A stretch of 64,000 nt of DNA from Tyto alba. Lineage: Eukaryota; Chordata; Aves; Strigiformes; Tytonidae. Position 1 is the stretch's first letter, and each line of letters starts with the position of its first letter. This document shows positions 34,596 through 62,250 of the stretch, one piece after another. Made by a program: the position numbers and the translations under genes. The DNA is taken from NCBI RefSeq assembly GCF_018691265.1, contig NW_024881316.1, forward strand, positions 24,219,819 to 24,283,818. Reading direction: 5' to 3'. The notes under the pieces are model-generated. The model saw nothing but the letters and a program-made list of their open reading frames with translations. It was not told the DNA's origin and did no database searches.

Positions 34596-34683
34596 TCATC
34601 TGTGGCTTTTATAATGGACCATAAATGTTTCAGAAGAATGATCTGTCGAGGTACTTCTTGACTCACGTTTTGTTCTGCAGGCT
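34596..34683 (-). CDS. GFRAL: GFRAL coding exon 11 (cytoplasmic tail and stop)
   Basis: The acceptor is TTTGTTTTCAG; the phase fits the preceding AG to make arginine. The exon encodes 28 residues rich in R, K, S and T and then TGA at 34598-34596. The length and basic/Ser-rich character fit the short mammalian tail, but residue similarity is low, so this rests on splice fit and composition. A GTGAGT inside the exon (AAACGTGAGTC) is a possible cryptic donor. Confidence 0.72.
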
Positions 34684-37600
34684 CTGAAAACAAAGAATGT
34701 GCATGTATTTAACAGTAAACTATATGGCTTTTGGTTTGAACTTTGGCTTAATTGAAATCAGTGGCAAAATTCCCCTCTTTTTATGATGAACACTGTGGTA
34801 TAAAATAATTCCCTTCATCATTATTAATGTACTGTTCTTTCTTCCATCCCCTCTATTCTTTAAATCTGAGTTTTATTTATATGCTGATATTCCTGTAACT
34901 GCAAACCTAAAGAGAAAGCCTCTGTTCCCATATATCTTTGACTTGCCTTTTGCATTTTTCTGCATGATTCCTCTTTGATCTGCCTCTGAATTTAATAATG
35001 AAATTTGACTCAATATCCCTCCCACTGTATATAGCTCCTGCTACATCATGTTCTGTTACCTATCATCTGACAGTGTAATTCTTGAAATCTGGCCATTTAA
35101 TTTGGTCCAAGAAAATGTATCATTTAAGAAAAGGCCGTGTTCATTTGGCTAAGTGAATGCACATTTCTGTTTTCTTACCAAGCACTGGTGTATGGGCAGT
35201 TTCTCATACTGTGTGTGTGGGAATGTTTACAGAATCCTATCAGCAAAAATGGAATTTGGCAAGATTATTAACTACAATAGCAGCATTCACAGTTAGGTTT
35301 CTAAATATGTTATAATGCTGAATATTCTCATTTCCTTTCTGCATTACCTCTGCCTGCTACAGGGCTAGGAAGGTAGCCTTGCAGAATTTTTGAATTCAGA
35401 TTTCACCTTCCCCTGCCATGGGACAGGAAATGAAACCTCCTGCAGCCTGGAATCTCTGCATGAATGGAGGGCATTGTAGATATGTGTCGTATTTCACTCG
35501 TTCTTGCTGACACCCACAATGTCAGTTCTTTCCATCACTGGGGCATGCTGGACTGTTTTTAAAGACAATCACAGTGCCAACCTCTCAACTAAGTCAAAAC
35601 ATTTTATTCTCTGCTTTTCCAATTTCCTAGAGCCAGTGATTAATATGCCTATCAAATTACCTGATCTTTAGGAGAGTCGACAAGACTATTCCTAGGATGA
35701 GAACTACGCAGGAGGAATAGGCAATAATGTAGACTTTTTCACCTATAAGTAAAAAACAGAAAGCAGACATAAAACATTTACTTCCTCGGTAGTAAGAATC
35801 AGATTTGAGATCTGAATTGCAATGCATATATATGAAAGCTTAATTAGCAATCGACTCTGACATCAGTAATTAAAAGAGGGAAAAAGACCCATGTGGCATG
35901 CCAATGGTAGGAATAACTCTTCCTTCACCAGTTGGTGCAAAATAATTTTCAGAGTCCTTTTAGTAAATACCAGCTCCAATAGCACTGCATATGTGTAGCA
36001 CTGCCTTTTACTCTGTTCCACTCCAGGGGAACTGCAACAGCTTGTTACTCCGAATTGTGTTTTGGAGTACTTTCCCCATTGATTTTAAGGTGTTAATTTT
36101 ATTCTGTGTATCAGAGGAGACCTGGCTCTTGCTTACTTGCTAGACCTTTTTTCCTTTTTCACATATTACCATAATTGCAATGTGCAGCAATACTTGATCT
36201 AGAATCAAATTAATGTAAAATGGGATCTAGTGTTGCTTCTGGGCTCCATGCCCATGGAGTTTCCTCTTTCTCTTAGGCTTCTCACCAAGAAGTCACTTAG
36301 GCAGTTTCTGTGCTAAAAATTCCAACTCTTGAAAAACTGGGAGTTGTTTCAACTTCTGTTTTCCAAATGAGGAGAAACTTATTTTTCCTGAAGGAGTGAA
36401 TCCATCAGTTTTGGTCAAACATTCAGAAGGAAAAATTTCAGCTGAGAATGTAACAATCCCACAACCTGGGATGGAGAGCTTAGACGACTTGACAAGAGGA
36501 CTCAAATCCAGAGCCGCAAGCATAAAACATAAGACCTTTCTGTTACTTTCCTGTTGCACTGATTCTATCATGTTTATACAACTAAGTAAGTTTTGTTTAG
36601 ACAGGAACTCAAATGCAGAGTGGCAAATAAGGCCTTAGCTGTTCCCAAGGTGTTCTACCTTACATAGTGAAATATTCACTGAAGAGATGGAGTCCCAGCC
36701 CCCCCACCAGGCTGCTTACCTGGGCTGTGAGAAGGCAAAATTCTTGTCTCTGAAACAGTTATCAGTTATTACATATTGTGTGTTTGTGCATATGGACACA
36801 CAGACCCTAAATAAGACATTTTTGTATATACTACATATATGCAACAAATGCAGTCTATAGCATAATGCAAACAAAGGCGGTATAAATACTGGAGCAGCTC
36901 CAGTAAGAAAGAGTGAATATATATATTTTACCATGAGGGGACAAGTGAGCAAGAGCTGATCAGGGTGTTGGACCTACCTGGTTTTTATTATTATCACTTT
37001 TTCTCAAAAATATCCCCAAATCAAGTTTTCCAATAAAATAAAAATGAACACAATGACTGAACCATCACAAGTTGCACAGAGCAAACATACCACTTATGCA
37101 GCAAGCTACTGAAAAATATTTAATGTGGTGAATTTTTGAAGGAAGAAGGGCAAGATCTGTCTTAGTCTTGGTTCAGGACTGCTAATATCATACACTAAAA
37201 ATATATCAGCAGTTGGCTCTCCTCTCAAGTTACATTCCCTTAAGATGATGAGTTCTAGAAAGAGAAAAATTTTAGTCTTTTTTGCTCTTTCTCAATGTTG
37301 ATTGTTCACTCATTTTTTAAAACTTTCTACAACTGCAGGGGCAGTTGTAGAGGCAAGAGTTTCCTAGTTTTTTGAAGTGGAAAGTGAAGTTCACACATAT
37401 CTAAAGCAAAAGGAATTTTTTTTAAGTACATCAATTACCACAAAACTAGGAAAATTAAGAGCAACGGTCATGGATGGTTAAGAATAGGCTAATATTTCAC
37501 CAAAATATTATTTTTATTGAAAGAGTTGGGAGAAAAAGTCCAATTTTGATAAATCAAAACACTCTGAAATGATCAAATTAAACAAAAATGGTGTTTGGTT

Positions 37601-40600: not shown

Positions 40601-43600
40601 ATTCAGACTTCAATGGGAACAGAATTAACTGGGTGCAGGCTTCATTTTACAAACATTTATCTGAATCTCTGAGGGAAAGTTCTGCAGTTAGAACTAGTCA
40701 CAAGGGTGAAATATCTCACATTTTACATTTTCTCACTTAGGGCAGGATTTCTTGCATTATAACTTGCATTTCTTAACCACCAGAGTCTCATTCCAGCTAG
40801 AGATTCAGGCTCTGCCTGTAGTTGGCAAAGAGAAGACAAGACTTCCAGGACGTAGGAAATACAGTCTGAAAAGGTGGGATTAATCTTCTTCTGAGGGTCC
40901 CTGACTTTTTTCTCTGGCTACCCAGAGCACTTAGATGACATGCATGATTCATAGGTAAGTAATTTTAATGCTAAAATTACAGCTGAATGCTTCATTACTT
41001 ACATACAGGTCTCAGGAATCCTATTCCCATTAATCTACTGTTATATTTCCCAGGTTGCCCACTTCAGCAATAGTTGAAAGATGGAGATCATGGAAACCCC
41101 TTCATTTTGTACTGCATGCAGAGCTTGAATTATCTTTTCACTGTTAAAGGTGTTTAGTAGGAACAGTTCTGGGAACTAATTCATAGTAATGTCTGGATTA
41201 TTGTAATCTGCCCCGTGCAAGGTAGAACAGGTCATTCTATTTAGAGTTGATATTTGTGCATTAAGCTCTTTAGTGTTCTCACTCTGTAACTGAGTCCTTC
41301 TAAAGGAAATATAAAATTAATATTATTTCAACCATGAGAAAATTTGTGTATTAATTCAATATCCTATAACTTGATGTCACTTAATTGCTCCCGTAAATAA
41401 ATGGAAATAAAACCAAATGCAGCTCTATAGCCCATGGGATATCATGATCCGCAATTATGTCCCCTTCTGTTGCACAAGTAGGTAAAGTCTGATGGAGTGT
41501 AACACAAATGCCTTCTCAGATCACTTACTATGGCTTCCTAATTTTTTTGTTGTAACCACTATGGCACAAAAAGTCAAGAGATATAAGAAAGAAGTAGCTG
41601 TGACATCAGAGATAATATCTTGTATTACACATTATGACTACTACTCTCTAATGACTGTACAGAGAGTCAGTCTCTGGTGGGCCTAGTAACTTAATTTTCT
41701 CCAATTATAATATAGTGGTTGTGAGACATCTTTTTCAAAACCACTTAGAGGAATTGGTTCAGTCTCATTATCTTTATTTTGTGGTTATATAAACTAAGCC
41801 AAACAGGTAGAGAGATTTTACCACACTCTGTTAAATGAGGGAGTGACAGGTAGAGCTCACTTGCCTGAACCCACCCAAGGGACCCAACTTTTAAGTCTTC
41901 CCTATGATACACGAGGGAAATATCAAGAGTACTTCCATTAAAATCATGGGTTGATTTGCTCAAACTCACCGTTAATTGAAGAAGAATGGAGCTGTTCTCT
42001 GGAAAGCTTTTCTCCTGGTATTTTTGTATTTAACCAACGAAAACCTTTCTTCTTAATGGAAATTCGACCTGAATATTGGAAAGATAATACCCATTCAAAA
42101 TACTACTTTAAAATAAAAATTTAAGCAAATTTTGATAAGAGTCACTGAATTTATAAGGAACAGCTATTTAAAAATATTGTTTACTGATACTCAATGAACA
42201 AAGTGACTGAAAGTTCTTCCTTTGACATTTCTGTTATACCTCCCCTGTAGTTTATCTTATGGGGGAGAAGTGTGCTTTTAAAATAGTCTCTCCCTCAAAA
42301 CAGCTTCAATTCTCTTTTCACAGAAACAATTTTAGAAATAGGCCCACCAAAATAAGTAGGCCCACCAGACCAATATAGAAGTGATGAGAAATGGGTAGTA
42401 GTTTGAAACCATTTCCAAAAAGCAAAGCTTATTTTCCAAATGAATTGCTAGACCTCAACTCTTTCACAAAGGTCTGTCCTCTTTGTGGGCATATTTTCAC
42501 TAGTATATCTGAAAATACATATCTTCTGTTGAGACGACAAATAAGACGTCTACCTAAGTAGAGCAGTTTACAGAGCAAGAGGCTAAACCGTGCAAGAATA
42601 TTCATGGTCACTCACATGAACTGTAAAATGAGAAATTTTTATTCCTTAGGGGAATTAAAACAATATGACAAAGACTCAGGTTTGCAGCCTGGAATGTCAT
42701 CTAAATAGCAATGGACTAAATCTCCTTGTAATGTAGCATTTCTATGAGATCCAAAAGTACAACCCAGAGTTAAAATATTTTTGGAAACTTATTTTTTTAT
42801 TTTCTGTCACTGGCATTTTTGCTTATTCCTGTTGTGACACCAATCCTACATTGGCACTGATCCATGCTGTGCTTCTGTCTCATATACTCACAGTTCTTAC
42901 CTTTTGTTGAGTCTGCAGCAAGCTTTAATCCTGTAAATGCAGCCCCAAGAGCAAACATTTGTAGCAAGGCAGTGCCATACAAGAGTAGGAAGGTGTGATG
43001 GTGTAGACACCACTTGCAGGTCTGTTTACACCAGTTCTAGAGGCAAAGATCCCTTTTGCTAGCCCTGGGTATTTGCCTGTTCAGAAATACTTCAATGTTA
43101 AAAGTCATCACTACTGTAAGAGTGAAAGTTATCCAAAGTCAGAGCCCAGGCCAAATGAATAAGTTTGCAGAAAGGGTTGGATGAGGTCTGCACCAGAGCA
43201 CTCACTCCACATCTCTGAACTGCAATGCAGATATTGCTGTTTAACATGGCACCTTACAATCAAACCCATAATCATCTCTCTCTTCAGTTTAGCTGCATTA
43301 CAACAAGACATCTAGAAAAAACAAAAGCAAGATTCACAAGAGTGCAAATGTTCTGTAGAGTAAACGCCGATCCTTTACTCCGCTGAAGGCCCTGGATCCC
43401 CAAACTCTTCTTGTTTAACTAGCAAGAATTCATTTCAGCACAGGAGCAAGCAGGCTTCTGTTCTTCAATCTCAATTAGGTTAGGGAAGTTTCCATCACAA
43501 AAAAACATTTTATCCCGAGACTGCTTCAGGGAATGGCAATATCTGATGAGCATTATTTGATTATTATTATATGAGCATCATCTTTCTGCTTTATAGGTAA

Positions 43601-46600
43601 AGAATAACTAACAATGGTGTGATCACTCATTTGGACCATTAGATGCAGCCATAAAGCAAACAAACAAATAGTGCTCATCAGCAAAACACCACCAGTGTAG
43701 TCACAAATCTAACAGTCTTACAGTATCACTTTTCCAGGGAAGCTGGCAAGTGATTTTTAAACTTTTCTTGGAGTCTGAGTTCTAGTAGCAATTAACTAAG
43801 CTTAAGAGCAGTGTTTTAGCAACTTGATTTTAATTTCTGGTTATACTTTGACTGACAAGAAAAAATTACACCTTTATCAGTGGTAACATTTTGGCTGCTA
43901 CCACTAAAAAATTACCTAATTCATTCAATGAAATGCATACATGCAAATAATACATGGAACTATGAAATAGTCATTGCTTTTCATCGAAATCTTTAGATAC
44001 AGTTACTTCTCCCAAGGTTGGGAATATACATAATTACATATAGAAGATGACTGGCATAGGGTATGATGCACTAACAAGTAGTGTATCTTTAGAGGATAGC
44101 AAAATATCTGGTGTGATATAGCAGACATTTGAGAAGAAGAGGGTACTTTGGTCTTTAATCTGGTCCATGGACCGGATACCTGGATTTATCTGGAGCATTG
44201 CAGAGGCAGCAGATGAACTTTCAGGTTCAGTTTTAGGCTGCAGGAGACCAGGAACCACCCTGTGATGTGACCCATGGCACAGTAAGTAGGGACAAACAGG
44301 GGATTTGTTTTGAAGGCACACTCCAGATTCAGACTAAACCATTAATATTTGCTTTCATATTGCCAGTCATTGTGCTAACAATTCTCTCCTGAACAAAGAC
44401 TTGGCAAGGACTTTTATATTTAACAAAAATAAGTGGCTGATTTAGCACATGAAAGGATTTACTGGTTCTGAGAACATACATACATTTAATCCAAGTTAAT
44501 CCCAGTGTTTTTACTGAAGGCCAAATGCTGAAGCCTCCTTTCACAGCAGATTTTTCTTTGTGAGGTCCTATTTAAATCATCAAAGTTACTTGCTGTGGAA
44601 TGAAGTCTGTTGCTAAAGGCATGTAAGCTATACTAATATTTAGACTCCAAGAAGAAAAGAAAGAAAAAACAACATAATGTGTCATATTACATAATGTGTC
44701 ATTACAGTGCTGTTTAACATCTTTGCTGGTGACACGGACAGAGGGATTGAGTGCACCTTCAGCATCTTTTCCAACCACTCCAACCTGTGTAGTGCAGTCG
44801 ACACGCTGGAGGGAAGGGATGCCATCCAGAGGGACCTTGACGGGCTTGAGAGGTGGGACTGTGCAAACCTCATGAAGTTCAACAAGGCCAAGTGCAAGGT
44901 CCTGCACATGGGTTGAGGCAATCCCATGCAAAAATACAGGCTGGGAGATGAGTGGAGTGAGAGCAGCCCTGCAGAAGAGGACTTGGGGGTGCTGGTTGAC
45001 AAGAAGATCAACATGACCTGGCAACGTGTGCTCTCAGCCCAGAAAGCCAACGGCATCCTTGGCTGCATCAAGAGAAGCATAGCCATCAGGTTGAGGGAGG
45101 TGATTCTCCCCCTCCACTCTGCTGTTGTGAGACCCCACCTGGAGTACTGTGTTCAGCTCTGGGGCCCCCAACATAAGGAAGTGGACCTTCTGGAGAGAGT
45201 CCAGAGGAGGTCACAAAGATGATCAAGGGGCTGGAGCACCTATTCTGTGAAGATTACCTGAAAGAATTGGGGTTGTTCATCCTAGAGAAGAGAAGACTCT
45301 GGGGACACCTAATAGCAGCCTTCCAGTACTTAAAGGGGGCCTACAGGAAAGCTGACCTTTTACAAAGGCATGTAGTGGTAGGACAAGGGGCAATGGCTTT
45401 AAACTGAAAGAGAGTAGATTTAAATTAGTATTTGGAAGAAATTCTTTACTATGAGGGTGGTAAGGCACTGGCACAGGTTGCCCAGAGCAGCTGTGGCTGC
45501 CCCCTCCCTGGAAGGGTTCAAGGCCAGGTTGGACGGGGCTTGGAGCAACCTGGTCTGGTGGGAGGTGTCCCTGCCCATGGCAGGGGGGTTGGAACTAGGT
45601 GATCTTTAAGGACCCTTCCAACCCAAACCATTCTATGATTGTATGATTCTATGATACTATTTGTAAAAACACTGTACCAAAGTACAACATTAAGGCAATG
45701 ACAGGGAGGCTTTGGAACTTTTCTAGTCTGCATAATATTATAGGCCCCAGAAATTATTCCTTTGTTGCTATTCCAGCAAGTTCATGTAATGAGACATGTA
45801 TTTGATGTTACTGATTTGTTACTAATAGAAAATATTTCCCCAAACCAAAAAAAAAAAAAAAAAAAAAAAAAAAGAATTTGATTAAAAAAACAAAGATACA
45901 AATCTTGCTGAAATCAGTGACAGGAAAGTTATAGTAAACATTTGGTGGAAGTCAGTATTTTAATACTCTTTAAACCTGATTATTCTTTAAAGTATTATGT
46001 GTTACTCACGTAACTCAGTGAAGCAGGATTTGCTGTGAAGCATGTGATGGAAGAGCTTGCACAAAGACTGCTCCGCGGGAGGTAAATTCTGGCAGGTACA
46101 CTCCATGCGCAGCATCGTGCCCCAGTTGCTAATGTAGGCTGCTTTGCAATCAGCATTTGCAGAACAGGGGATGTCATCCTTAATTAAAGTTTCAAGACAA
46201 GCTTCATCATTGTAGCATTTTTTTGTCATATGTCTCCAACACTTGGACTGAAAAGATGTATATTTTTTCCTGGTGGAAAAAGAGAAGTATACAATGACAG
46301 TTTAAAAACTCTGTGATTTCAAAAAATGACATGTAAATATCATCATGAAAAGAGAATGTAGTCCCTAGGTACCACTCAAGCCTTAAAAATCACAATATTC
46401 AGTGATAGCTGGTCTAAATTCTGCTCCGATTTGCACCTAATTGGTTTGAGTGAAATCTGCAAAATTGTAATTGGAGGAAAATCTTGGTTTTAGCAAAAAG
46501 TTTTTGAGAAAAAGGAACTTCTAACCAGCACCTGTAGACATTTTCCCAAGGTCCAGCAAAAATCCATGTGAATACCAACAGTCTCAGATCCTCAGAGAAG

Positions 46601-49600
46601 AAATGTGAATAGAGGAATTAGACCAGTCAGCACAAGGAAACCGAAACAGGTGTTGTTCTAGTGGATCTGTTTGTTGGCCCGTCTGAAGGAAGAATGAATA
46701 TTCAACTTGTTTTACATAAAATAATCTACATTCAGTGCTAACACCTCCTCCGCCTGAATGCTAATGAAATAAAAAATGTTCAAGGCTCAGGAAAAATCAG
46801 AAGTAATTCAGTTGACCTTAAAGATTAATTGATAGCAGAGATAAGTTACGAGAAGAATTAACTTGTTTTCCAGCTCAATAATATCAAATTATTTTAGTTT
46901 ATTTTCTCTTAGGATAGAAAAAAATTGGCCTTTAATGCTCTATGTATGACAATAGAAAATATCTATTAAAAGTTAACTAAGAAATCTGTAGATATTAGTT
47001 AGAAACAAATTTATCACTTACATTAAATGTTAGTGGACAGTAAAGGTAAACTGTTGTATATTGTACATTAATATGTTAGAACATTATTTCCTTAATCATA
47101 AAATTAGGCTATTAATTTACTATTTCTATTGTGTAACTGTAACAAGCAAGTCACATGGAAAAACATGGATTCTTATAATACCAGCTAGGACATTATTGTA
47201 AATATTTTCATTACACAAGCAAAGGTTTCAAAGCAGATGTCACCTCTGTGCTAATGGAATTATGTTTATTCACCTCCTGATTTATAGATATGGCTAGCTA
47301 TAATTCACAGACTAATTTTGCTAATTATATCCACTTATTTTCAGTGCCAAGAAACATTAATGTTCCCAAAATAATAGGTAATTCAGCAAGTCACCATTAT
47401 GATATTGCATGTGTACACATGCACATGCACAGACATACATTTGTAACCCAATTCTTCTTGACATAAAAAGGGGCAATTCCCACTGACATCAACCTGAGTA
47501 GCCTGCACAGAATTAAATCATCTTTTGTCCTCCTCATTTGTTGACTAAAGGTTAATTTGTGCACAGCTTTCAGGTAAAATTCAGGTCTAATCCACAAGGG
47601 AACTGGTGACTACACTGAAAACCAAAGTGAGCCAACTGACCATGCACAAATGGTGGCAATTAAGTAGAACTACAAATATGGGCTGATCCTGTTGTGTGTT
47701 TTCTCAAATAAACTAAAATCTGAAAACTCTGTTATTCTTCATTAATTTGGTGGTCTGTGCATGTTTCAGGGCAGCTTTTTTCAAGTATCAGTATGCTTGA
47801 GATGAAAAGAATATGACAGTTTTCCGAACAGGCCAAGTTGGTTGTATGGCTGTTGGGTACAAAGGGTCAGACTCTGCAGTGGAAGAGGTAATTACTTTAA
47901 CCAAACAAACTTTGTCCAGTCTGCTGCACAATTTGTGCAAACTGCTAGAGGGCAAAGGTGCAGACTGGCAGGTGTTATCTGAAGAAAATGGTAATGAAAA
48001 TATGCAACAGCACAGTTTGTCCAGCAGAAATAGTGTTAAGAGTCATAAAAGAGGCAGAAGCAAAGTCCACACTAGATTCTAGACCTTTCTGAAAATTAAC
48101 CTTTTCAGTTTACTTGTGGAATTACCACAGCTGATGCAGACATCTGTGAAGATGAAAACATGAGTGATAATATATAATAGATACAGAGCAGAAAAAAATT
48201 TTGCTATACATGAGATATATGGCGCATATGTAAAAATGATTTAATCAAATCTTTATTCACAGGAACATTACTAGGCAAAATCTTCCTTCTACTTACCTAC
48301 AAAACTCATTCTCTTCACACATGTGGATTACATTCAGACATGATGGGGGTGGAACTGTAGTAACTGCGCAGGGTTTGCCATGGAGAAGTTCTTTGGCTCT
48401 GTGGCAGGATTCATCAGGCTGGACACAGTCACAAAATGTAAGCATTTGGGCAACTTCAAAAGGCATATTTCGATAGAAGAAACTTATGGCTGCTTGACAT
48501 TCTTCCATGTTGCACTTCTTATTTACTGAGCAAAACTTAAGGTACAGGGACAACTGTTTGTTACATACTTCATCTTCAACACACTCCTTGTTCACATCCA
48601 AACAGGTTCTGTTTGCTGTGTATGCTAAAAAGAGTAACAGTTTTTAAAATGAAATCACAAGAAAACCTTTCTCAAGTGATGATCAGTTGTCATCATGTCT
48701 GCAACATTCCCATTAAAACCAAGTTTGACTCCCCAAAACTCTGATCCAGCTCTGCAAGTTTCTGCCCCCACCAGATAAATACAGGAGAATAAAGTGAAAA
48801 CTGGCAACATGGAAGTTTCTTCATGGTATGTAATAATTTCTGGAAGATAGTGGCTAGAAGATACCTGAAACTGCTGAAATCTCCATCATGCAGTCTTATG
48901 CTAGGCTACATAGTAAATAGTGGAGAAGATAATATAAATGGCATTTCTGTGCTTTTAAAGCTAGTTTAGGTTTTTTCCTAGCCTATGCTATAAACCTTCC
49001 AAAAAGATCTAGGTAATGACCCTAAAATGTTTATGGGATAAGATTTGCCTCTGTAAATTTAATAGTATTAGGATTGTTACCTGATATTTCTGGATTCTTC
49101 TCTACCCAGTAGCTTAAGTGAAAATATGTTGGATCTACTGACTGCCTACTCTTCAGTGATTTGAATGGAAAGTATTAATTTCAATCTCAAAATACATTGT
49201 ACACTATCTGAAACCAGAACTAAAACTAGTTATTAGGATTCATAAGTAAATTCAGACTTACCTTGGTTGGACAGAGCAGATAAACTCCATTGTAATTTTG
49301 TTTCTGTACTAATATTATCTAGAAAAAGAAAGATACAGATACAGGCATAAGTGATAAATCATGTCATAGCTTAGTTTTTAACTTTAAAGTATTGGCTGTG
49401 TTGCTGGCACAGTGCCAGTAGTAAAAATAAACAAGAATAAAATAAATTAGCTTGACAAAATAGAACCTGTCAGATTGCTAACAAATTCTCAAATAACTGT
49501 TACATATATTCATAAGTTTTGGAGTGAAATCACAGTTTATCAGTGGCTGCTGATAACATTCTCTGTATACTTATAGATCCTGGGAGCTCGAGAAGAGTTT

Positions 49601-50098
49601 CTAGACCTGCTCAGTGCAGTACAAAGCCGTATTTCTTGTGAATAAATAAAGGCCAGAAGCCTTAATGTGTTCATCAGTGCACACAGTTTTCAACTAACTG
49701 CTTGTCATGGTTTAAAGTCAAGGTGGGCAGACAATTCCTGCTATTAGAAAATTATTGTTATTGGTCTTATATTGTTTCTAGTTATTATGTGATACTAAAA
49801 GGGACTGATTTGGATCAGGTCATATCAAATTAATACATTGAAGGACAATAGTATTTGCACTTAGGCTATCATTTTGCTATCAGATTATTCATCTGCATCT
49901 AAATAAGCTTCTTAAAACTATCCTGTTTCTAATGTTAAACAGCAAATAATTAAGAAAACCTTTTTACCAGACTTGTACACACTTCTGTCATGTATGAAAG
50001 CACTCCAGCTGCTGGAATACCCCTAACCTGTGTCAGTGTCCTGATTTTTCTCATCATCAACATCATCATCGTCATCATCATCAACACCATCAAGGTTG

Positions 50099-50164
<66 letters not shown>

Positions 50165-53100
50165 CTTTCACTAGCTGCTGAAGCTTGGCTTTCTTGAGAG
50201 TATTGTAAACAAGGATTGTTAAATATTCCCCTCCATATTTTAACGCATCTCATCTGAAGTGGCTCTGAGCACTTGCACTCTCCCAGCACTGTTTTCCTCA
50301 GTTCTTGTCCCGCTGACAAACACTCCTGCTTGACCCTCGGGAGCCTGCATTTTGCTGTGTCCACCTTGCACGCTCGCTGGAAGCTCTTATAGACTAAAAA
50401 GCAGTAAGGGTCCTCTTGGCAGCGTTGTTTTGCAATACTGCAGTCGTTCTCTGATTCTTCCGGGTGTCTTTGGCCTTTGACATTTCTGTGTTGCCTAAAA
50501 TTCTGTCCAGCGTCTGATCTTGAGGAAGTTTCCAAATATTCTGTACAAATAGGTACAAACAGAGATATACATCAAATGGAAGAGAGGGCATCATCACTGG
50601 TCAGCTCAAAACAAACTCAGGAAAAGGATAATTGTCTTAATGCAGTAAAATGAATGAAATAGCCCTATTTTCATTCTCAGATGTACATAAAAATATAATA
50701 ATTTTGGAGTTTTGCAGGTTAATGAATCTTCCTCATGCTTACTGTGTCCTCATGGCTGTATAATAGAATCTACTTTAACAGTTCAGCTGCTAACAGTAAC
50801 ACGAGAAACTCTCACTGTAATTACTGCATAAAGAGATTCATCTCACATAATTTTAACCACAGATTAGACATATCGTGGATTATCATCTTAATTCAATGCA
50901 TAATTTGTGAAGAGAGAATGGCAATTCCAGAGAATTGTTCATTCATTACCTAAAATAGTCATTTAAATTAGACAGGGAGAATTATTCCTGAAAGTATCTA
51001 CCAACACCATAATCTATCATGTATAGGTAAAACCAATACTAGTGTAACTCCACTCAACCTTTTTGCTATACTGGTTAAAAATGTAATCTCAATCAGCAAA
51101 AAATATAAAATTACTTCATTTTGCCAGAAGCAAAAGCAACTGTTCCAATGACATCAACATCAGGTTTTAGATACCCACTCTTCTTGTTAGGGGCAATGAG
51201 TAACAGATCAGGATGTTATTATTTTCTCTATAATAAAGCCATATATTCTACTACTATATGACGTACACTGATTGGTGCCAGGAGGGAATGATGGATCAAT
51301 GCCAGGAATCAAACTTGGGGATCACGTTCCAGACTCTCATTTATTGGCTGATTTTGCCTTTTTTATGTCAGCTTTGTTAATCATTACTTTAGGAGACATT
51401 GGATCAGAAACTGCAAGCCTTTCATGCACCAAATAATTCTCAATTATAGAAACAGATTTTCTGAAGGGAAGATAGTTCTCAGGATAATAAAAAACAAATT
51501 CAGAGGAGATGGGCGCATTGCTTACAATAGATTTTTTTAAAAGGATGAACTTTATATATTAAGTACAGCTTTATGAAGGCAGTAACTACTTCCCACATCC
51601 ATTAACCTCTCCTAGATGTAGTGAAGATGTTCCTGTAACACAGTGTGGCACAACTGCAGAGCTGTGCATCCCCATTCACCCACACTCCCATTCACAAGGT
51701 AGCTGGATGTGGCTCTCTATACATAACATAGATCCAGTGGCTCTCAAGCCTTCTTGCGCAACAAGTAGACCTCAACACGTCTTATTTTCACTCTTGCTTT
51801 CCATTGGATTGAGCAAAAGCTTTAAAACCCATTTGAATATATCACATGCCTTTTATTGTTTTTTAATTTTATTTTAGAGCACATATAGCATCGCTTTCAT
51901 ATGCATATTGGTGTATGAATAACATAGAAAAGACAAAACTATTTTTTGGGGGGAATTATCAGATTTGAGAAATATGCAAAGAGACTTGAAACCAGTTAAA
52001 ATGAGGGTTACAAAACTGCATATTTCTTTTTGTTCTTCATAATTAATTCTTTATGTTTAGTTACCTTTATCAATGCTGCACTGTTTCCCAAGCAAAGTCG
52101 TGATGCTACAAAAATTGTCTGTAGTGCAGACACAGGTTTTAAATTCTGGGTATTTGTCAGCCAGGACCTGGATGATTCTATTACATCCAATAGCGTCTTC
52201 TGCCTTGCACCTATTACCTAGAACTTATCATTAAAATTATAATGTTGTTAATGTTTATGAATGCTTAAGGGATACGGTTACATAAAACAATTCAACTGAG
52301 GCACAAAAATAATATCTTTTGCCCAGAGAAGATGGTTTGAACTTAGTTTTGTTTGAAAACCTGTCATAATTTACAAATTTTAAATAACATTCAGAGGGAT
52401 ATAATAAAGTTGTGGGTATGATATTGCCTTCTTTTATTCTATCTATCTGATGCATTGCCAGAACATCTTTTTCTGTTCTCATTTCCAAAGTACATAAAAC
52501 CTTAAACTCATACCTTTTATTCTACGTAGATGATGTACAGCAACCAAACTAAAAAGGTGCACATGAGTTGAGGGGCACATCCTGAACTGAGGCAGAGACG
52601 CTCATCTGTGTGGAAGTTAGGTGGTTGGTACAGGGGCGGGAATTCACAGTGCGGGGTAAGGTACTGCCGTGTAACCGAGTAAGAGAGGGGACGCGGGAGG
52701 GCAGGCGCAGTCCCCGGTGATGGTGGTGCTAACCCCGTCCTGAGGGATGCCGGCTCCGGTTCAGATCCGTCACTCACGTGAGGATGACACGAGCCTACAA
52801 ATGCCTGGCCATTTGGATATGCCCTCGGACTGCTACCCTGTAGAAGAACTTTGCTGCCTAAGTTTGGCAATGACAACAAATTTGAAATAGCCCAAGGATA
52901 TTCTGATTTTTATTTTTTTCATTATAAAAATAAGGAGGAATTTAGCATTAAAAAAAAATTACGCAGAAGCCTGGGTTGCGAGTCCAGTTTCAAGCCCGTT
53001 GCTTGCATGTGCACTTGGACTCAATGACAAAGACACTCACACGGGCTGTCAGGTCATATTTTCCTTGTATGCATAGTAAAAATAAAGTGCATGTACTAGT

Positions 53101-56100: not shown

Positions 56101-59100
56101 ATTAGAACCTCAGGGACTGAGTTACTGAACTCATACCATAGAGTAGGAGTACATTTATCATTTGTAGTTAGGTTTTTCATAAAGAAACTAGCAAAAGGAA
56201 TACTTGTCCCACTGCATGTTGCCTTCAACTGACATGCTCCTGCTCAGCCTTTTCCATTCACACAATTTACCCATGAAGTTTTTAGTCTTGCACATGTAGA
56301 GTATTTTTGACAGATAGTATAATGTTATTCTTACTAATAATGCTGTGGGTAGATTTTTTGTCACTGTTTCTGTGGGTTCTCTGAGAGGTACCATCAGCTG
56401 TCTGACTGCAGGTTACACCCTCTGGGGTGATGGTACCTAATAACCACATTTAGAATAATTTGTCCCAGACTAAATGCAGTATCTGAGTGCCCTGCAATGC
56501 TGGAGAGTCCTTGCCAATATTATCCTAATGAAATATACAGATGCAAAACCAAACAAACAACCACAAGAAGCATTCATTTGCAGCAGACTTCTCTGACTCA
56601 GTTACAAATACCATTAATATCAGTGAATAAGCACATAGGACAGTAAGTGAGGCAAATTGCATATTATGGGACAACGCAACAAATCCAAAGAGGAGACCAC
56701 AGAAGTCATTGTGCTGGCCCACTTCATCTGGTTGCAAGGTATGATGTAGAGTAGTTACAGTACAAAGCCTGATCTTTATATCAAGTAGTCTTGGTGATAA
56801 TACCTTTGTGAATGATGTGAGAGAAGCAAATTCAGCTTCTTCTAATTTGGGGAAGAGGTTTGGTTCTAGAAAGCTCATCTTTAGGTCACTATCATGAGCC
56901 TGAAAGTACTGCATATTCCAATACTTATTTCAAACAGCAGCCATATCTTTTGAAACTGTTCCGCTTCACATAAAATATTTAAAAAATCAGTAGAACATGA
57001 GCTGAAACCCAGTTCCTATGGGGACTGTTGTAACCATTAGGTTATCATGCATTTTTCATTTACTCTGTTCATAAAAGTATTCAGCCATTCTATGCAAAGC
57101 GGATATGTATCTGGAACAGGACACACTAAGAAAGATCCCTCAGAGAAATTTCTGCTCTAATTATATTGAATACCACCTTGTGACTTTGGATGATTGGGTT
57201 CAAATCTCTGCAACAAATCAGACAGATAGAGGCATTCAGGTAGCTCACACTGCAGGTGAATGTTCTAGCAGTGGGTTATTGAGGATGAAGTCAAGCAGCA
57301 TCTTCTGCTACCTGGCTTCCCACACAGAGCAAACGTTAGACTGGGTCTTGATGTCACAACAGACAGAGGGACATTCACTTTATCAACTCTGTTGCAGCTG
57401 AGGCTCAGAACAGATTACGGCATCAGGATATGGCTGGTTTTGTTCAAATAATGTCAATATAAGGAGAAGGGAACTTTCCGTGGAGATATAGATACCTCCA
57501 ATTCCCAGTGACAGAGAGACTGCCTTACTTAATTAAGTTGCTGGAAATGGCAGTTATGTACCTAAATATCCTTGACTACATTTATGAACAGAATCAAGGC
57601 ATGGGCTAGGCTAATGGCAAGTCACTGTGTCTATACTGATGCACTTTTGCATGGCACCTGGTCTGGACTGAACCAGCTAGACTGGTAAGATAGTGTGGGC
57701 CTCAAGTCACTCCCAAAAGGCAGTTTTGTGCAGCCTGCATGGGGGTAAGACTGTTTACTTGTATGGATAAATGCTGGCCCATAACAGTTGAACTCAGGGA
57801 CAGAAAATAGTCCCTGGCCTATTTTATTTGCTAGTACTGATGTAGCCTTGGTATATCAAGGCCTTTGACACTTATCAGTCAACAAAGGCATCATTGCTAG
57901 CTTGGTCTAATGACACTACCACTCTTCTCTTCCCTTCCATATTTAGAGCATCTGACAGGCAAATATTCAATGTTTAACAGCAAGGTCTTGGAGGGATTTA
58001 AAGAAAGAGAGAGATGGCGACTGATCCAAGATTTGTTCAAGAAGTTAATAGACCTTTAGAGAAAGGAATATTTTCATCTAAACGATAACAGAGATTAGGA
58101 TGACTTTCGGGTCAACCTTAGAATCATAGAACCATAGAATGGTTTGAGTTGGAAGTCATCTTAAAGATCATCTAGTTCCAACCCCCCTGCCATGGGCAGG
58201 GACACCTTCCACTAGACCAGGTTGCTCAAAGCCCCATCCAACCTGGTCTTGGACACTTCCAGGGAGGGGGCAGATCAACTCCTCCGAATTATGGAAAACA
58301 AGGTTGGAACTTTTTTTCCAGCTGCATGTTGTCTTTATTTAACAGGATCCCACAAGAGCATAATTTCTGCTGAATTCAGACTTGTGTTGGTTCAGACTCT
58401 GACTTTGTCCATAGTCCTGAAATTTCATTTATCACCTTACTGAAGAGGCAGTATGACTGTTAGTGAAAACAATCTTGGCCACTGTCAAGGATTTCAGAAG
58501 TTGACTGTCTTCTGCCATCATTTTCTCTTTGAAATCTTACGGGTTTCATACAGTTACTACAGCAATACTATGCTAAACTGTGTATATGCAACTATTCAGC
58601 AATTCAAAATAAAGGTACATACACCATAAAGAATTACCTGAAATATTGCAGACATCTTCAACTACCTTCCAGACACTCTCACATCCATTTGCAGCATTTA
58701 TACACTGCTCCCTCAAGTGCAGACAGTCAGCAGTCTGAGCAGTAGATACACTTGTGAAGTACATGAACAACACTGTAAAACCAGAATATAATGATTATTT
58801 ATTACATTAGATAGTGTACTGACCTTTTTCATTTACACTTAAATTATAACAATATAATTTACTGTAGTTTATCTATAGATTCAAATTTTCTACCAAGTGA
58901 ATTTTAAACAGAATATTTTTTTTCCTCAGTTTCACAGCTGGAAAATTAAATTTAAATTTTAAATTTTCAAAGTTGCAGTGTGGCATATTTTGTATTGGTT
59001 TTATTCCAGTATTATACATCAATCATAGCTATATATGGTTTATATATATATATATATATATATAAAATAGATATATAGAAATGGCTGCAGTTCTGAGATC

Positions 59101-62081
59101 CATAAGAAATTATAGAAAGGAAGACAGACAATATAAAATTCAGAGGAAACAGCATTTTATTTGGACTGCAATTTCATCAAGCTAGAGACTACACAGGAAT
59201 TCCTATGAATAGAGCATGTGAAAGAGATCTGACAGTTACATAACTGTTAGATAATAAATGAGATATTATTTCATAATACAGTACTCTTCACCATCTTTGT
59301 TTTTACTTCACAGATGCATCATTTCTTGAAAACAACCCACTCCTTTACGTCTTTATCTGCTTCCCCGAGTGCACTGAACCTAAAGGCCATGTTAATTGCA
59401 TAAAAAAGTTCTGAAACTGAAGACTGATACAGAAGTTTCAAGGTAAAGAATTTTAAATCAGCACCATCTCTGGCTTATGAGTAGAAAATTTAATTGTCTT
59501 GCTAAGAAAAGACAAATTAGTTTGGGTTTAGCTCTTTCATCAACATTTATGTGGTAACACAGCCCCTAATTTGTAACCATGTGTCATAATTTTCTATAAA
59601 ATTAAGTTTCAGACAGTGATTTCAGGCCTTATCAAACTAGGTGATAAATACCTAATGGGATTGTTTTCCTTAGGTATTGAAGGACACAGCATCTCCCAGA
59701 CCAAGTCTCCTTTTTTTTTCCTTATGTTCAGGTAAATTCATATGTAACCTGAGACTTTTCTAGTACTAATTCCTTAAATGTCATCTGCAAGAGGCATGAA
59801 ATATTCCCTCAGGATTTGTCCAGATCATATCCATAGAAATTAAGTGTTTCCAGTGGTACATTTGAGAAATAAGAAATTAAATACCAAATATTGCTCTTAA
59901 TAAAGAGGCATGACAGTTTAGAGGTGATGCCACCCCTTCTGGAAATTATTCTTACCTGTGATATAACAGTGCTGCCATAGGGAAAGCTTTCTGCGTGCAT
60001 GTTGGTAAAGACGAAGCAACATTTAATACTTTATAACTGACAAGTACAGTAGCATCTAGGGTGCCTATGAGACACTGAGATACCACGTGCTTACTGTAGC
60101 AGGTGCTAATCCTTCCCCAGTTGTGCATAGTCCTGCCAGTTCCCAGATCTGTGCAAGGGTTGGTTGTGATGTCAGTGATTTACAACCTGAAATACTCTTT
60201 TAGGCTGCATCTGTCGCTCAGCCTGAAAGGCTGATTGACAGAAACAGCCTCTGCCACTTGACATTGAGGAATGCGCAGCTGGCCCATCCATAGGGACAAT
60301 TTTGGCTCATTATGGCAATATTTTAATCCTGAGACCGTCTCCAAAAGTTCTAACTGTGAAATTATTCACTATTATTTCAGATGACAGAGAAAAAAAAAAA
60401 AAAAAAAAAAAAGTTGCCAGATACCTTACAGGTCAAAATTCCTGTATATATAAGGCAATACAAAATTACAAACCTAGAAACTTTTTAAGAAAGGGTATTT
60501 TGCTGGATGACCACTTGCCTATTTTTTAGGTACTAAGACAGTGGAAGATTTATGCATCTGATTAGGATCTGCAGCACAAAGACTTCATACTGTCTCGCTC
60601 CTGCTAAAGCAGCTTTTCAGAACCAGTGACTGAAAATTAATAAAGTAGGACTGATTGCCAATTAGCAGCTCCTACTCCTTTGTTAGGATTATTTCAGAGT
60701 GTGTTTATTTTGAACCCACCTGGAAACTGTGCCTACAAAAAGGAGGAGATGCTACTGCAAAATAAACAGCCAAGTGGCATAATACATGATTGAAGCTAAT
60801 TCAGTCTAAGAGCTTCTCCAGATCTAATGACATCTTACAGATGGGTCTTTTGTTTCCTCAGCAGTACACAGGGAGCATACTGTGGCAAGCCTACATGAAA
60901 CAAACCAGCCTATATGATTTCAGAATGCAGTGAACTGTAGCTAATACAACTGTTAAAATTAACAATCACTTCAGTCATTCACTTTAGTTATTTACTCTAC
61001 TGTTTGGAGTACTCCGCAACTGTTTCCTACTTAGAAGAGTTCAGGTCATCTAAGAGTTAGTTTGTAGCTAAAACTTTTAGAGGGATACATTTTGGTATGA
61101 AGATACATAAATATAGATTTCTACAGTTGTCTGTATTTTTGTACAGGTGTCTTGATTCACTGGGTAGGTGTAAAATTCCTTGTTCTGAAGAATTTGGTGT
61201 CTAAAGTGAAAAGAGGGGAAAGAAGGGCATTTTAGCACCTTCATTTTGCAGATTGGGAACTGTGGAATGGAGGAATTGCAGTGTCTCTCCCAAGATTGCA
61301 GAATTATTATCTGGCAGATAATAATGAATAATGGGAAACCAAGCTGTGGTGTCTATCTAACTGCAAGAGCAGCAAGATAGGTAGCTCCAAAGGAGAAAGG
61401 CAAACTAGAGTTGAATACAGATTGAGTATAGTTGAAAAGTGATAAAGGATCACTTTATTCTAACAAAGCCTGTGGCAGAACTACTTAGAATGTTTTTTAA
61501 CAGGGGAATATGAGTTTAGAGTAGCGGGATGTTAAAGAGTTCAGCATGTATACAGTAGGTAGAGGGGAATAAAAGAAATGAAGATACACTTGTCTCAACG
61601 TCTCTTGTGCCAATCCCGTTTCTACCAGGTTTCTTGATTTTCCCTTTTCCTCCGTTCAGACCCCAAGGGAAATGCCAGTAGCCCCCCTGCGTCGCACTGC
61701 CAGCACTAAACTCTTCCCACGTAGCAAACAAGTGGCTGTTTATTCAGACAAGCCGTCCCAGTTGCGGGACTCCTCGCCGGTTCAACTTCTGGCCAGCGCC
61801 ACCCCCGCCACCCCCGCCTGGGTGTCCAGGGCCTGGCCGTCGCGCAGGGGTGGGGACCCCCGCCGGGTACCTGCTCGCCCCCCTCCTTCGGGCTCCCCGC
61901 GGGAAGGATCAAGGGACGGAGCCCTCAGGGATCCCGCGGGGAGGAGAGGCCAGGAGGCGCGGGGCGCAGCGAGGGTCCTGGCCAGGCTGGGGGGCTGCCT
62001 CCTCCCACCCCAATTCTCTCTTCCCCTTCCACCCCCCCCACCCCTCCCGCGGCACTTACCGAGGCGGAGGAGCGCGGCCAT
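34596..62081 (-). CDS. GFRAL: GFRAL, GDNF family receptor alpha-like (complete, 11 coding exons)
   Basis: Type I membrane receptor. In mammals it binds GDF15 and signals through RET in hindbrain neurons (family knowledge). Coding exons on the - strand, 5' to 3': 62081-62060, 58772-58638, 52217-52065, 50540-50028, 49318-49262, 48624-48297, 46269-46010, 42930-42901, 36749-36720, 35742-35661, 34683-34596. All introns are GT-AG and every splice phase matches. The total is 1698 nt, or 565 residues plus TGA. Residues 1-19 are a signal peptide. Ten-cysteine domains lie at about 24-99, 137-214 and 301-379, and a third family domain (D3) starts at 389. The membrane segment is about 513-534, with a 31-residue basic/Ser-rich tail. 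Identity rests on clear similarity to mammalian GFRAL in D1, D2, D3 and the membrane exon, and on HMGCLL1 as convergent neighbour. The second domain is extra relative to human. Without it the protein is 394 residues, equal to human. The two 30-bp exons are the least certain parts. Confidence 0.93.
34684..35660 (-). other. GFRAL intron 10
   Basis: 0.98-kb GT-AG intron between the membrane and tail exons. Nothing recognisable inside. Confidence 0.7.
35661..35742 (-). CDS. GFRAL: GFRAL coding exon 10 (transmembrane segment)
   Basis: The 82-bp exon runs from phase 1 to phase 2, with acceptor TTTACTTATAG and donor ATCAG|GTAATTTG. It encodes GEKVY followed by about 20 hydrophobic residues, ending LLKIR. 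The start (GE-x-[VI]-Y) and the lysine/arginine stop-transfer end match the mammalian GFRAL membrane exon. Reading past the donor gives AGG TAA, an immediate stop, so retention of intron 10 would make a receptor with almost no cytoplasmic tail. Confidence 0.9.
35743..36719 (-). other. GFRAL intron 9
   Basis: 0.98-kb intron. The 92-residue open frame inside (36293-36571, - strand) has no recognisable domain and overlaps a similar + strand frame; neither is supported. Confidence 0.6.
36720..36749 (-). CDS. GFRAL: GFRAL coding exon 9 (30-bp stalk microexon)
   Basis: This microexon lies between acceptor CTGTTTCAG and donor CCCAG|GTAAGC, phase 1 on both sides. It encodes TRILPSHSP directly before the GE that opens the membrane exon. 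The human stalk has an HSP tripeptide at the corresponding place just before GE, which supports the call. A second AG two bases downstream (36748) would shift the frame and is less likely. Confidence 0.65.
36750..42900 (-). other. GFRAL intron 8
   Basis: 6.2-kb intron. It contains a T tract near 37612-37630, a GC-rich patch at about 38570-38780, and a possible conserved non-coding block at about 38870-39180. No exon or transposon was recognised. A pyrimidine-rich acceptor at about 42635 (TTTTACAG on the - strand) leads in phase to a stop after 12 codons and could serve as an alternative end, with low confidence. Confidence 0.55.
42901..42930 (-). CDS. GFRAL: GFRAL coding exon 8 (30-bp juxtamembrane microexon, tentative)
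   Basis: This is a tentative microexon between acceptor GCATTTACAG and a strong donor AAAG|GTAAGAAC, phase 1 on both sides. It adds [10 protein letters not shown] after D3. Similarity to the mammalian stalk is weak. Including it keeps the frame, and together with exon 9 and without exon 4 it gives exactly 394 residues, the human length. It could instead be chance; RNA evidence would settle it. Confidence 0.5.
44703..45662 (+). mobile_element. CR1 LINE, 5'-truncated 3' end of ORF2 plus 3' UTR
   Basis: The + strand encodes the CR1 reverse-transcriptase C-terminal region in broken frames (44707-44916, 44926-45222, 45219-45407). Typical pieces are [41 protein letters not shown] and LLERVQRRS. 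The typical 3' UTR follows (GGTTGCCCAGAGCAGCTGTG) and ends in the ATTCTATGATTCTATGATAC tail. Stops and frame changes show it is dead. It lies in GFRAL intron 7, antisense to the gene. A 14-base direct repeat with 17-base period abuts its 5' end (44672-44702). Confidence 0.95.
45849..45873. repeat. Poly-A tract
   Basis: About 25 consecutive adenines in GFRAL intron 7. No retrocopy was recognised upstream of it, so it is listed as a simple repeat. Confidence 0.85.
46010..46269 (-). CDS. GFRAL: GFRAL coding exon 7 (bulk of domain D3)
   Basis: The 260-bp exon runs from phase 2 to phase 1, with acceptor TTTCCACCAG and donor TTAC|GTGAGT. It encodes the D3 segment with FQSKCW, KAAYIS, CTCQN and [13 protein letters not shown], all clearly matching mammalian GFRAL. 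D3 contacts RET in the mammalian complex (family knowledge). Reading through the donor meets a stop after two codons (R-E-stop), so intron retention or intronic polyadenylation here would give a secreted ectodomain. Confidence 0.96.
46270..48296 (-). other. GFRAL intron 6
   Basis: 2.0-kb intron between exons 6 and 7. AT-rich, with no recognisable element. The + strand open frame 47813-48082 has no support. Confidence 0.75.
48297..48624 (-). CDS. GFRAL: GFRAL coding exon 6 (domain D2 and start of D3)
   Basis: The 328-bp exon runs from phase 1 to phase 2, with donor TGTAG|GTAAGTAG. It encodes all ten D2 cysteines (301, 308, 314, 325, 331, 336, 358, 360, 367, 379; spacings 6-5-10-5-4-21-1-6-11) and then the first D3 cysteines at 389, 396 and 402 after a PPPSC motif. 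The block QAAI-x-FFY and AQML-x-FCDC is nearly the same as in mammalian GFRAL. In mammals D2 is the GDF15-binding domain (family knowledge). Confidence 0.97.
48625..49261 (-). other. GFRAL intron 5
   Basis: 0.64-kb intron with nothing recognisable. Confidence 0.8.
49262..49318 (-). CDS. GFRAL: GFRAL coding exon 5 (short linker exon before D2)
   Basis: This 57-bp exon is too short for simple open-frame detection. The acceptor is CTTTTTCTAG and the donor CAAG|GTAAGTC, both excellent, with phase 1 on both sides. It encodes [19 protein letters not shown], which matches the mammalian GFRAL linker in sequence and position (DN-[VI], K, W-x-L). N276-I-S is a potential glycosylation site. Finding this conserved linker after exon 4 shows that exon 4 is an addition, not a diverged version of the linker. 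Confidence 0.87.
49319..50027 (-). other. GFRAL intron 4
   Basis: 0.71-kb intron between the extra domain exon and the linker exon. Nothing recognisable. Confidence 0.75.
50028..50540 (-). CDS. GFRAL: GFRAL coding exon 4: extra GFRalpha-D1-like cysteine domain plus polyaspartate linker
   Basis: This 513-bp exon lies between an acceptor TTTGTACAG and a donor CAG|GTTAGG, with phase 1 on both sides. Residues 137-214 form a complete ten-cysteine domain with spacings 6-5-10-6-8-14-1-7-11. Its signature features (EC-x-SA-x3-L, CKC, CVKIW) resemble the first domain of classical GFRalpha1-3 rather than GFRAL D1. Residues 230-251 are 22 aspartates in a row, followed by seven more at 257-263, giving a strongly acidic linker before D2. 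Human GFRAL, as I know it, passes directly from exon 3 to the small exon that follows, so this exon has no counterpart there. It could be constitutive or a cassette exon, because skipping it keeps the frame. The open frame, cysteine pattern and splice sites argue for real coding sequence. Confidence 0.78.
50101..50163. repeat. (ATC)21 microsatellite within GFRAL coding exon 4
   Basis: 21 pure ATC units on the + strand read as GAT on the coding strand and give Asp231-like runs; with the adjacent GAC they make 22 consecutive aspartates. A second, interrupted set of ATC units at about 50050-50085 encodes seven more. The purity suggests recent growth and likely length variation. The 20-plus methionine or isoleucine runs in other frames here are artefacts of the repeat. 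Confidence 0.95.
50541..52064 (-). other. GFRAL intron 3
   Basis: 1.5-kb intron with no recognisable element. Confidence 0.75.
52065..52217 (-). CDS. GFRAL: GFRAL coding exon 3 (second half of domain D1)
   Basis: The 153-bp exon has phase 1 at both ends; its donor is AAAG|GTAAC. It supplies cysteines 56, 64, 81, 83, 89 and 99, with the family CxC motif (CVC at 81-83) and the segment LLGKQC near the end. Together with exon 2 this makes a complete ten-cysteine GDNF/GAS1-type domain with spacings 6-6-10-6-7-16-1-5-9, matching mammalian GFRAL D1. A forward-strand open frame over the same bases is a shadow. Confidence 0.95.
55030..55550 (+). mobile_element. Degenerate CR1 LINE 3' fragment
   Basis: The fragment shows the CR1 order: GTGCCCAGTGCTGGG, GAGAAGCTGAGAGCTGGGAC, then CTTCAGTGATATCCACTGACAGGACAAGAGG, then GGTTAGGCTAGATG and the closing GATCCCTTGCAACTTCAGTG. 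It diverges more than the 44.7-kb copy and lacks a clear octamer tail, so it belongs to an older subfamily. It sits in GFRAL intron 2. Confidence 0.85.
58121..58277 (-). mobile_element. CR1 LINE 3' terminal fragment, reverse orientation
   Basis: It starts with the inverted tail (ATCATAGAACCATAGAATGG) and continues through the inverted 3' UTR (CCAACCCCCCTGCCATGGGC, ACCAGGTTGCTCAAAGCCCC). It is a severely 5'-truncated copy of about 155 bp, in the same orientation as GFRAL. Confidence 0.93.
58638..58772 (-). CDS. GFRAL: GFRAL coding exon 2 (end of signal peptide, first half of domain D1)
   Basis: The exon is bounded by a pyrimidine-rich acceptor (GGTTTTACAG) and a donor GTAATTC, and both ends are phase 1 (135 bp). 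It completes the signal peptide and encodes the start of the first cysteine-rich domain: cysteines at residues 24, 31, 38 and 49, including the segment DCLHLREQC. This matches the beginning of mammalian GFRAL D1 closely. N50-I-S is a potential N-glycosylation site. Confidence 0.93.
59039..59064. repeat. TA dinucleotide repeat
   Basis: Pure TA run of about 13 units in GFRAL intron 1. Confidence 0.9.
60390..60411. repeat. Poly-A tract
   Basis: About 22 consecutive adenines in GFRAL intron 1, with no recognised element attached. Confidence 0.85.
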
Positions 62082-62250
62082 GCCCGGCCGCCGCCGGCTG
62101 CAGCTCCGCGCCGAGCGGGGTCGCGCCGGGACGCGGGTGTCGGGGCGGCGCCGCCCCTTCAGCACCCGCCGCGGGGACAGCGCCCCGCCCCCGGCCCCCC
62201 CGCCCCGTCCTACTGCCCCCCGGCCCCCCCTCAGCCCATCGGTGAGGAAC
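61750..62250 (-). promoter_or_regulatory. GFRAL: CpG island / GFRAL promoter and first exon
   Basis: This is the most GC- and CpG-rich stretch of the window and it surrounds the GFRAL start codon. A GC box (GGGCGGGG on the - strand, 62190-62183) lies about 100 bp upstream of the ATG, and I see no TATA box, which fits a CpG-type promoter. Long open frames on both strands here (for example 61672-62259 +) follow from the GC content and are not called as genes. The transcription start cannot be fixed from sequence. Confidence 0.7.
62060..62081 (-). CDS. GFRAL: GFRAL coding exon 1 (start codon and first half of signal peptide)
   Basis: ATG at 62081-62079, with G at -3 and G at +4, encodes MAALLRL and ends in phase 1 at a strong donor (G|GTAAGTGCC). 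Spliced to the acceptor at 58773 it gives [19 protein letters not shown], a convincing signal peptide with S at -3 and A at -1. An in-frame upstream ATG at 62165 would add 28 mostly arginine-rich residues and bury the signal peptide, so the downstream ATG is preferred. The exon lies inside a CpG island, as expected for a first exon. Confidence 0.85.

Follow-up and report, generated by a model that had tools for sequence, protein, structure and literature searches.

A fourth GDNF/GAS1-type domain in sauropsid GFRAL and its possible relation to the D1 domain of GFRalpha receptors

The appetite hormone GDF15 acts in the brain through its receptor GFRAL, which is a drug target in nausea, cachexia and obesity. 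In the passages of the literature drawn on here, human GFRAL is described as a protein of 394 amino acids (aa) encoded by 9 exons, with three domains and a transmembrane helix, and D2 is required for GDF15 binding in the mammalian receptor (PMC7299427). Additional contacts between mammalian GFRAL and RET are made via residues 247-266 around the disulfide C252-C258 (PMC8266384). According to the same source, D1 of GFRalpha1 packs on D3 with an SPYE linker, and density assigned to human GFRAL D1 lies beneath RET CLD1-2, beside D2/D3 (PMC8266384). In another study GFRAL D1 was disordered and not visible, and likewise the D1 of GFRalpha1 and GFRalpha3 (PMC6760901). In the passages used, both structural papers treat the three-domain human form. 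Four domains, D0-D3, were reported for Drosophila Gfr-like (DmGfrl), a protein of 114 kDa anchored by glycosylphosphatidylinositol (GPI) that comes from animals without known GDNF ligands; four domains were also predicted for C. elegans (PMC3527400). Here we describe the GFRAL gene in a stretch of 64,000 nucleotides from Tyto alba (contig NW_024881316.1, positions 24,219,819 to 24,283,818 of the forward strand), below called the window. It contains an exon of 513 base pairs (bp) that encodes an extra GDNF/GAS1-type domain, labelled X. The term N-terminal domain is used for the domain known as D1 in mammals, which we propose to be a D0.

A fourth GFRAL domain is not described in the titles and abstract openings of the open literature surveyed, which are partial listings with key older comparative papers outside them, nor in the passages drawn on from PMC3527400, PMC7299427, PMC6760901, PMC8266384, PMC5415192 and PMC4349606. 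Public gene models already contain the exon and are simply named GDNF family receptor alpha-like.

A complete bird GFRAL gene lies on the minus strand of the window, its ten coding exons having AG/GT borders. It encodes a protein of 578 aa, which replaces the 565-residue model of an earlier note on this DNA. The layout consists of a signal peptide, the N-terminal ten-cysteine domain, X with a long acidic tail, D2, D3, a stalk, a single transmembrane helix and a short tail; the signal peptide and the transmembrane helix were assigned by eye and by homology to other models. The gene is identified as GFRAL by the collinearity of its N-terminal domain, D2 and D3 with the human protein and by a transmembrane helix instead of a GPI signal. 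Among the matches listed in the protein search, the nearest gene models are those of birds.

The extra exon is coding exon 4 (50028..50540, minus strand). Its acceptor reads ctatttgtacag/AATATT and its donor ACACAG/gttagggg (slashes mark the exon borders), the latter being the sole one of nine GFRAL donors with T at +3. The exon is in phase 1 at entry and exit and has a stop-free frame, and joining it to position 52065 upstream and position 49318 downstream continues the GFRAL frame. The earlier note had placed an exon with good splice sites between the N-terminal domain and the DNI...W linker leading to D2, and frame and gene model bear this out. Domain X (50203..50448, minus strand; NDCSIAK...NPCLQ) contains ten cysteines with exactly the spacings noted before, 6-5-10-6-8-14-1-7-11, including a C-x-C. 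The exon product matches the Pfam family PF02351 (GDNF/GAS1) over profile positions 1-87/87 with E 2.1e-6 and 28.8 bits (cut-off 22), and the predicted structure of X has the helical fold of GFRalpha domains. In a phmmer search of the PDB the translated exon found the D1 stretch of GFRalpha3 at E 4e-5; a ribosomal protein row of this search (E 1.2) was taken as chance. The N-terminal domain of the window has ten cysteines as well, yet no Pfam hit.

After leaving out the extra exon, the window model aligns collinearly with human GFRAL (6q2j_C), the match spanning the N-terminal domain through D3 (E 6.7e-100). Because the alignment is collinear around the exon and ten coding exons here compare with 9 in human, the bird gene has one more coding exon, at one clean place. 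Together with the Pfam match, this agrees with the earlier claims that bird GFRAL possesses a fourth cysteine-rich domain, that human GFRAL has three, and that the human protein lacks a counterpart of the exon. Mammalian GFRAL (human, PDB 6q2j and 5vz4), the GDF15 receptor with RET, shares the order N-terminal domain, D2, D3 and the place where these are joined, but has one exon and one domain fewer. The CxxxxxC loop of D3 is kept too, as CYNDEAC in the window and CHEDENC at C252-C258 of human GFRAL.

Conservation was assessed in an alignment of 59 models of at least 480 residues plus the window, i.e. 60 rows. From these, P0038 was dropped with less than 80% of the X columns filled, leaving 59 rows (58 models and the window). 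All ten cysteines of X are invariant in 59/59 rows, a figure that, with rows coming from searches with X-containing queries, does not measure how many species have X. Identity between the window and four squamates is 55-56% in X, 54-56% in the N-terminal domain, 57-63% in D2 and 44-53% in D3. The flanks of X within the same exon reach 13-19% (stretch before X) and 27-31% (acidic stretch), and the conservation of X between two drifting flanks of one exon points to selection on the protein. A chance open reading frame is ruled out by the Pfam score and this conservation.

The protein search gave 152 matches, and the 120 listed are birds, three turtles and two alligators. With turtle X alone as the query, 25 of 27 candidates matched (17 birds, 2 turtles, 1 alligator and 5 squamates, query counted), and with worm lizard X 9 matches among 12 candidates (eight squamates and one turtle, query counted). 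According to these gene models X is not confined to birds but shared by birds, turtles, a crocodilian and squamates (lizards, snakes). As it is conserved across these groups, the extra exon is, judged from sequence, coding and dates to the common ancestor of birds, turtles, crocodilians and squamates. A domain scan of 129 sequences, the window included, detected X at least partly in 71, while the full order of N-terminal domain, X, D2 and D3, i.e. four GFR-type domains in tandem, was present in 55. Ten models (P0027, P0029, P0031, P0044 and six more) keep X with only part of the N-terminal domain, and P0031 skips exon 3; splicing may thus be able to omit either of the symmetric exons 3 and 4.

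For the assignment of X to a domain class, a hidden Markov model (HMM) of 59 X sequences was compared with 17 single domains, namely D1-D3 of human GFRalpha1, 2 and 3 and of zebrafish GFRalpha1, two of human GAS1 and three of human GFRAL, a set outside which GFRalpha4 D1 falls. The four GFRalpha1-3 D1s scored 28.1-33.9 bits, and for each of them the score was reached by 0/200 cysteine-fixed shuffles. GFRalpha D3s scored 15.3-20.2 bits and GFRalpha D2s -0.9 to 2.9 bits; D3, D2 and D1 of human GFRAL followed with 13.8, 10.0 and 7.8 bits. GAS1 belongs to the same domain family but has two domains, and these matched X more weakly than the GFRalpha D1s (14.6 and 10.6 bits). In the reverse direction, the GFRalpha D1 HMM was the best of three for 59/59 X rows, with a mean of 27.2 bits against 11.7 for D3 and 0.0 for D2. 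As controls, the D2 profile was best for 59/59 GFRAL D2s and the D3 profile for 59/59 GFRAL D3s. With hhalign, X aligned to GFRalpha D1 at E 8.8e-10, to D3 at 4.5e-7 and to D2 at 0.12. Searching the whole PDB with a profile of ten X sequences returned 14 rows, the top seven of which were D1 stretches of GFRalpha1, 2 and 3 (E 9.5e-5 to 1.6e-3) and the next of which had E 0.58; Notch rows (E 0.86 and worse) were taken as chance. X also shares with the GFRalpha1-3 D1s the position just before D2 and the 14-residue gap before C-x-C, present in 4/4 GFRalpha D1s and 0/13 other domains, and with GFRalpha1 D1 the pattern EC-x-SA-x3-L. In these comparisons, then, X matches D1 of GFRalpha1-3 better than any other domain tested, and the earlier suggestion that by sequence it is nearer to this D1 than to GFRAL's own N-terminal domain stands.

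The N-terminal domain behaved differently. Its HMM scored human GFRAL D1 at 83.5 bits and GAS1 D1 at 6.9 bits, and no GFRalpha domain exceeded 3.8 bits; hhalign against GFRalpha D1, D2 and D3 gave E 0.044, 0.43 and 0.1. Searched against the PDB, its profile found human GFRAL (9.8e-21) plus one chance row (1.7), and GFRalpha was not among the matches. On these profiles, the GFRAL N-terminal domain is without a clear match to any GFRalpha domain.

We regard it as fairly probable that a coding GFRAL exon, spliced in always or alternatively, adds a D1 homologue, that sauropsid GFRAL has the layout D0-D1-D2-D3 followed by the transmembrane helix, and that the mammal lineage lost D1 as a single exon. 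Whether, in addition, the human GFRAL 'D1' is the older D0 rather than the counterpart of GFRalpha D1, the true D1 having been kept in sauropsids and lost with one symmetric exon in mammals, appears to us evenly balanced. The simplest history would start from an ancestral GFR receptor with D0-D1-D2-D3, from which GFRalpha1-3 lost D0 and mammalian GFRAL lost D1, while sauropsid GFRAL kept both. D1 would then have been present when GFRAL and the GFRalphas split. Because the exon is in phase 1-1, its loss or skipping keeps the frame and would leave the three-domain mammalian form. DmGfrl, with four ten-cysteine GFR domains in a row, would have the arrangement proposed here, a likeness by description in the source passages (PMC3527400). 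GFRalpha1-3 differ from sauropsid GFRAL in being GPI-anchored, according to the passages used of PMC8266384, and in lacking an N-terminal D0.

Several observations weigh against this four-domain history. X has ten cysteines, as compared to eight in all four GFRalpha D1s. The SPYE linker motif, which holds GFRalpha D1 on D3, occurs in 0/128 models and not in the window, and because of its absence X is not classed as part of a GFRalpha1-3-class D1-D2 unit but only proposed as a D1 homologue. A domain tree, as recommended in the earlier note, grouped X with D1 in its best topology. Support was only 79/20 with 49 domains, where the program gave a warning about long branches coming together at the X-D1 join, which may then be false, and 98/93 in a 38-row tree without GAS1 and N-terminal domains; the first tree set of the later run reproduces the earlier numbers and is not an independent repeat. 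Not rejected were X with D3 and L3 (p 0.309 with 49 domains and 0.165 with 38 rows), X with only the D1 of GFRalpha3 (p 0.171, 0.123), X with the N-terminal domain (p 0.128) and the N-terminal domain with GFRalpha D1 (p 0.139). Of 50 N-terminal domains, 40 had D1 and 10 had D2 as the best profile, all below 10 bits. Structure prediction gave a good domain model of X, but this aligned best to D3 and not to D1, even in chains long enough for D1, and none of its Foldseek matches reached E 0.001. For the flamingo orthologue P0001, AlphaFold2 gave a full-length model with a mean predicted local distance difference test of 54 and a predicted template modelling score of 0.28, which was not used. Moreover, X is lacking in 57/128 models (window not counted) in which the N-terminal domain, D2 and D3 are present, with 49/57 of them at most 330 aa long and most named partial. 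Finally, amphibians, fishes and mammals are absent from the matches of the turtle-X and worm-lizard-X searches, which need many exact shared words.

The main rival to loss in mammals is a gain on the sauropsid line, in which a stem sauropsid GFRAL captured the D1 exon of a GFRalpha paralogue by exon shuffling and mammals never had the exon. All 25 turtle-X and all 9 worm-lizard-X matches being sauropsid fits such a gain, as does the non-rejection of trees joining X to the D1 of GFRalpha3 only or of GFRalpha1/2 only (p 0.117-0.195), and an exon in phase 1-1 leaves the frame whole when inserted. However, the missing anamniote matches are weak evidence, because every turtle-X match listed shared at least 8 exact words and the search missed further sauropsid models that shared up to 12. 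The GFRalpha1-3 D1s form a group that excludes X (97/91 and 94/93; GFRalpha4 D1 outside the set), and a copy of one of the eight-cysteine D1s would have to regain two cysteines. We consider this gain rather unlikely. The earlier note had left loss and gain side by side; the apparent D1 homology of X favours ancestral presence and loss in mammals, with two of the three lines of evidence for it being soft, namely the trees (79/20 versus 98/93) and the structure, which is nearest to D3. That last point would suit an origin of X by duplication of D3, from GFRAL or a GFRalpha, rather than from D1. Structure alone, however, hardly distinguishes paralogous domains that share one fold, and D1 ranked above D3 in every sequence comparison made. 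The gap before C-x-C is 14 residues in X and 27-29 in GFRalpha D3, and the trees gave p 0.0507 and 0.0465 for X with GFRalpha D3 and 0.0326 and 0.058 for X with GFRAL D3. A D3 duplicate thus seems quite improbable.

A different question is how often the exon is used. The brain receptor could mostly skip a real exon and be three-domain as in mammals, with the long form restricted to a tissue or stage. The symmetric exon, whose skipping the frame survives, the unusual T at donor +3 and the 57/128 models without the exon, among them the turtle model P0119, speak for such a minor cassette, and so does P0031, which skips exon 3 instead. But the models without the exon are mostly short and partial and may be projections from mammalian proteins, and X is conserved equally to the other domains, which argues for steady use; we find predominant skipping unlikely. 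That the exon is an annotation artefact or dead, its frame open by chance and never translated, is extremely improbable in view of the ten cysteines in 59/59 rows, the 55-56% identity to squamates and the fast-diverging flanks in the same exon.

If the four-domain history is right, birds and reptiles would have kept an ancient four-domain receptor of which the mammalian GDF15 receptor is a shortened form. The collinearity of D2 and D3 with their human counterparts and the retained CxxxxxC loop lead us to expect the same core complex with GDF15 and RET as in human. X would lie between D0 and the GDF15-binding D2, so that D0 would be about one domain further from D2, with the flexible acidic linker in between. 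X may occupy the place beside RET CLD1 that is held by D1 in GFRalpha1 and GFRalpha2, carrying D0 further out, but D1-like packing cannot be assumed as SPYE is missing. If human GFRAL D1 is D0, its different place in the RET complex needs no special plasticity, and the odd placement of this domain described in the passages of PMC8266384 would have a simple historical reason. The same would explain its disorder in cryo-electron microscopy and the missing SPYE linker. With an ancestral sauropsid form, mammalian domain numbering would hide non-homology, and a real exon would go on being omitted wherever gene models are projected from the mammalian protein. In birds and reptiles, a naturally occurring receptor would also be available in which the distance from D0 to the ligand site differs.

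The acidic linker behind X is encoded by a GAT/TCA triplet repeat of 38 copies (50051..50164, minus strand). Its run of 22 Asp is the longest among the 71 sequences with this region, the next longest being 11, and in the turtle, alligator and squamate models shown the linker is short and acidic or neutral. The linkers in alligator P0055 (EEDYDDERDQD) and turtle P0053 (EDDYDDERNQ) are similar to the acidic stretch (DEDYDDEQR) that follows the second domain in human GAS1, which could be chance.

The remaining coding exons lie on the minus strand as well. Exon 1 (62060..62081) carries the start codon and the first signal-peptide residues, exon 2 (58638..58772) the remaining signal peptide and the first half of the N-terminal domain, and exon 3 (52065..52217) its second half. 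At exon 3 there are tandem acceptors (52224-52217), the upstream one of which is taken in models P0001 and P0014, gaining Val-Leu. Downstream of the extra exon, exon 5 (49262..49318) encodes the DNI...W linker to D2, collinear with human GFRAL, and exon 6 (48297..48624) D2, ligand-binding in the human receptor, together with the start of D3 (Pfam E 2.3e-13, and human GFRAL alignment). Exon 7 (46010..46269) contains the rest of D3 with the GFRAL-type CYNDEAC loop, exon 8 (41970..42068) the juxtamembrane stalk, exon 9 (35661..35742) the putative transmembrane helix and exon 10 (34596..34683) the cytoplasmic tail and stop codon. When exon 9 (35742-35661) is skipped, exon 8 joins exon 10 (34683-34493) in another frame, giving a 585-residue product. 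Two of 128 models, P0019 and P0023 from duck and chicken, terminate in this new tail as well; exon-9 skipping may yield a receptor form without the normal membrane helix.

Elsewhere in the window, a G/C-rich unit of 63 bases is repeated in tandem 4.1 times with 90% matches (62216-62472), about 135 bases upstream of coding exon 1. The segments 44917-45222 and about 55000-55500 resemble what we take to be avian CR1 retroelements, one of them with a reverse-transcriptase-like open frame.

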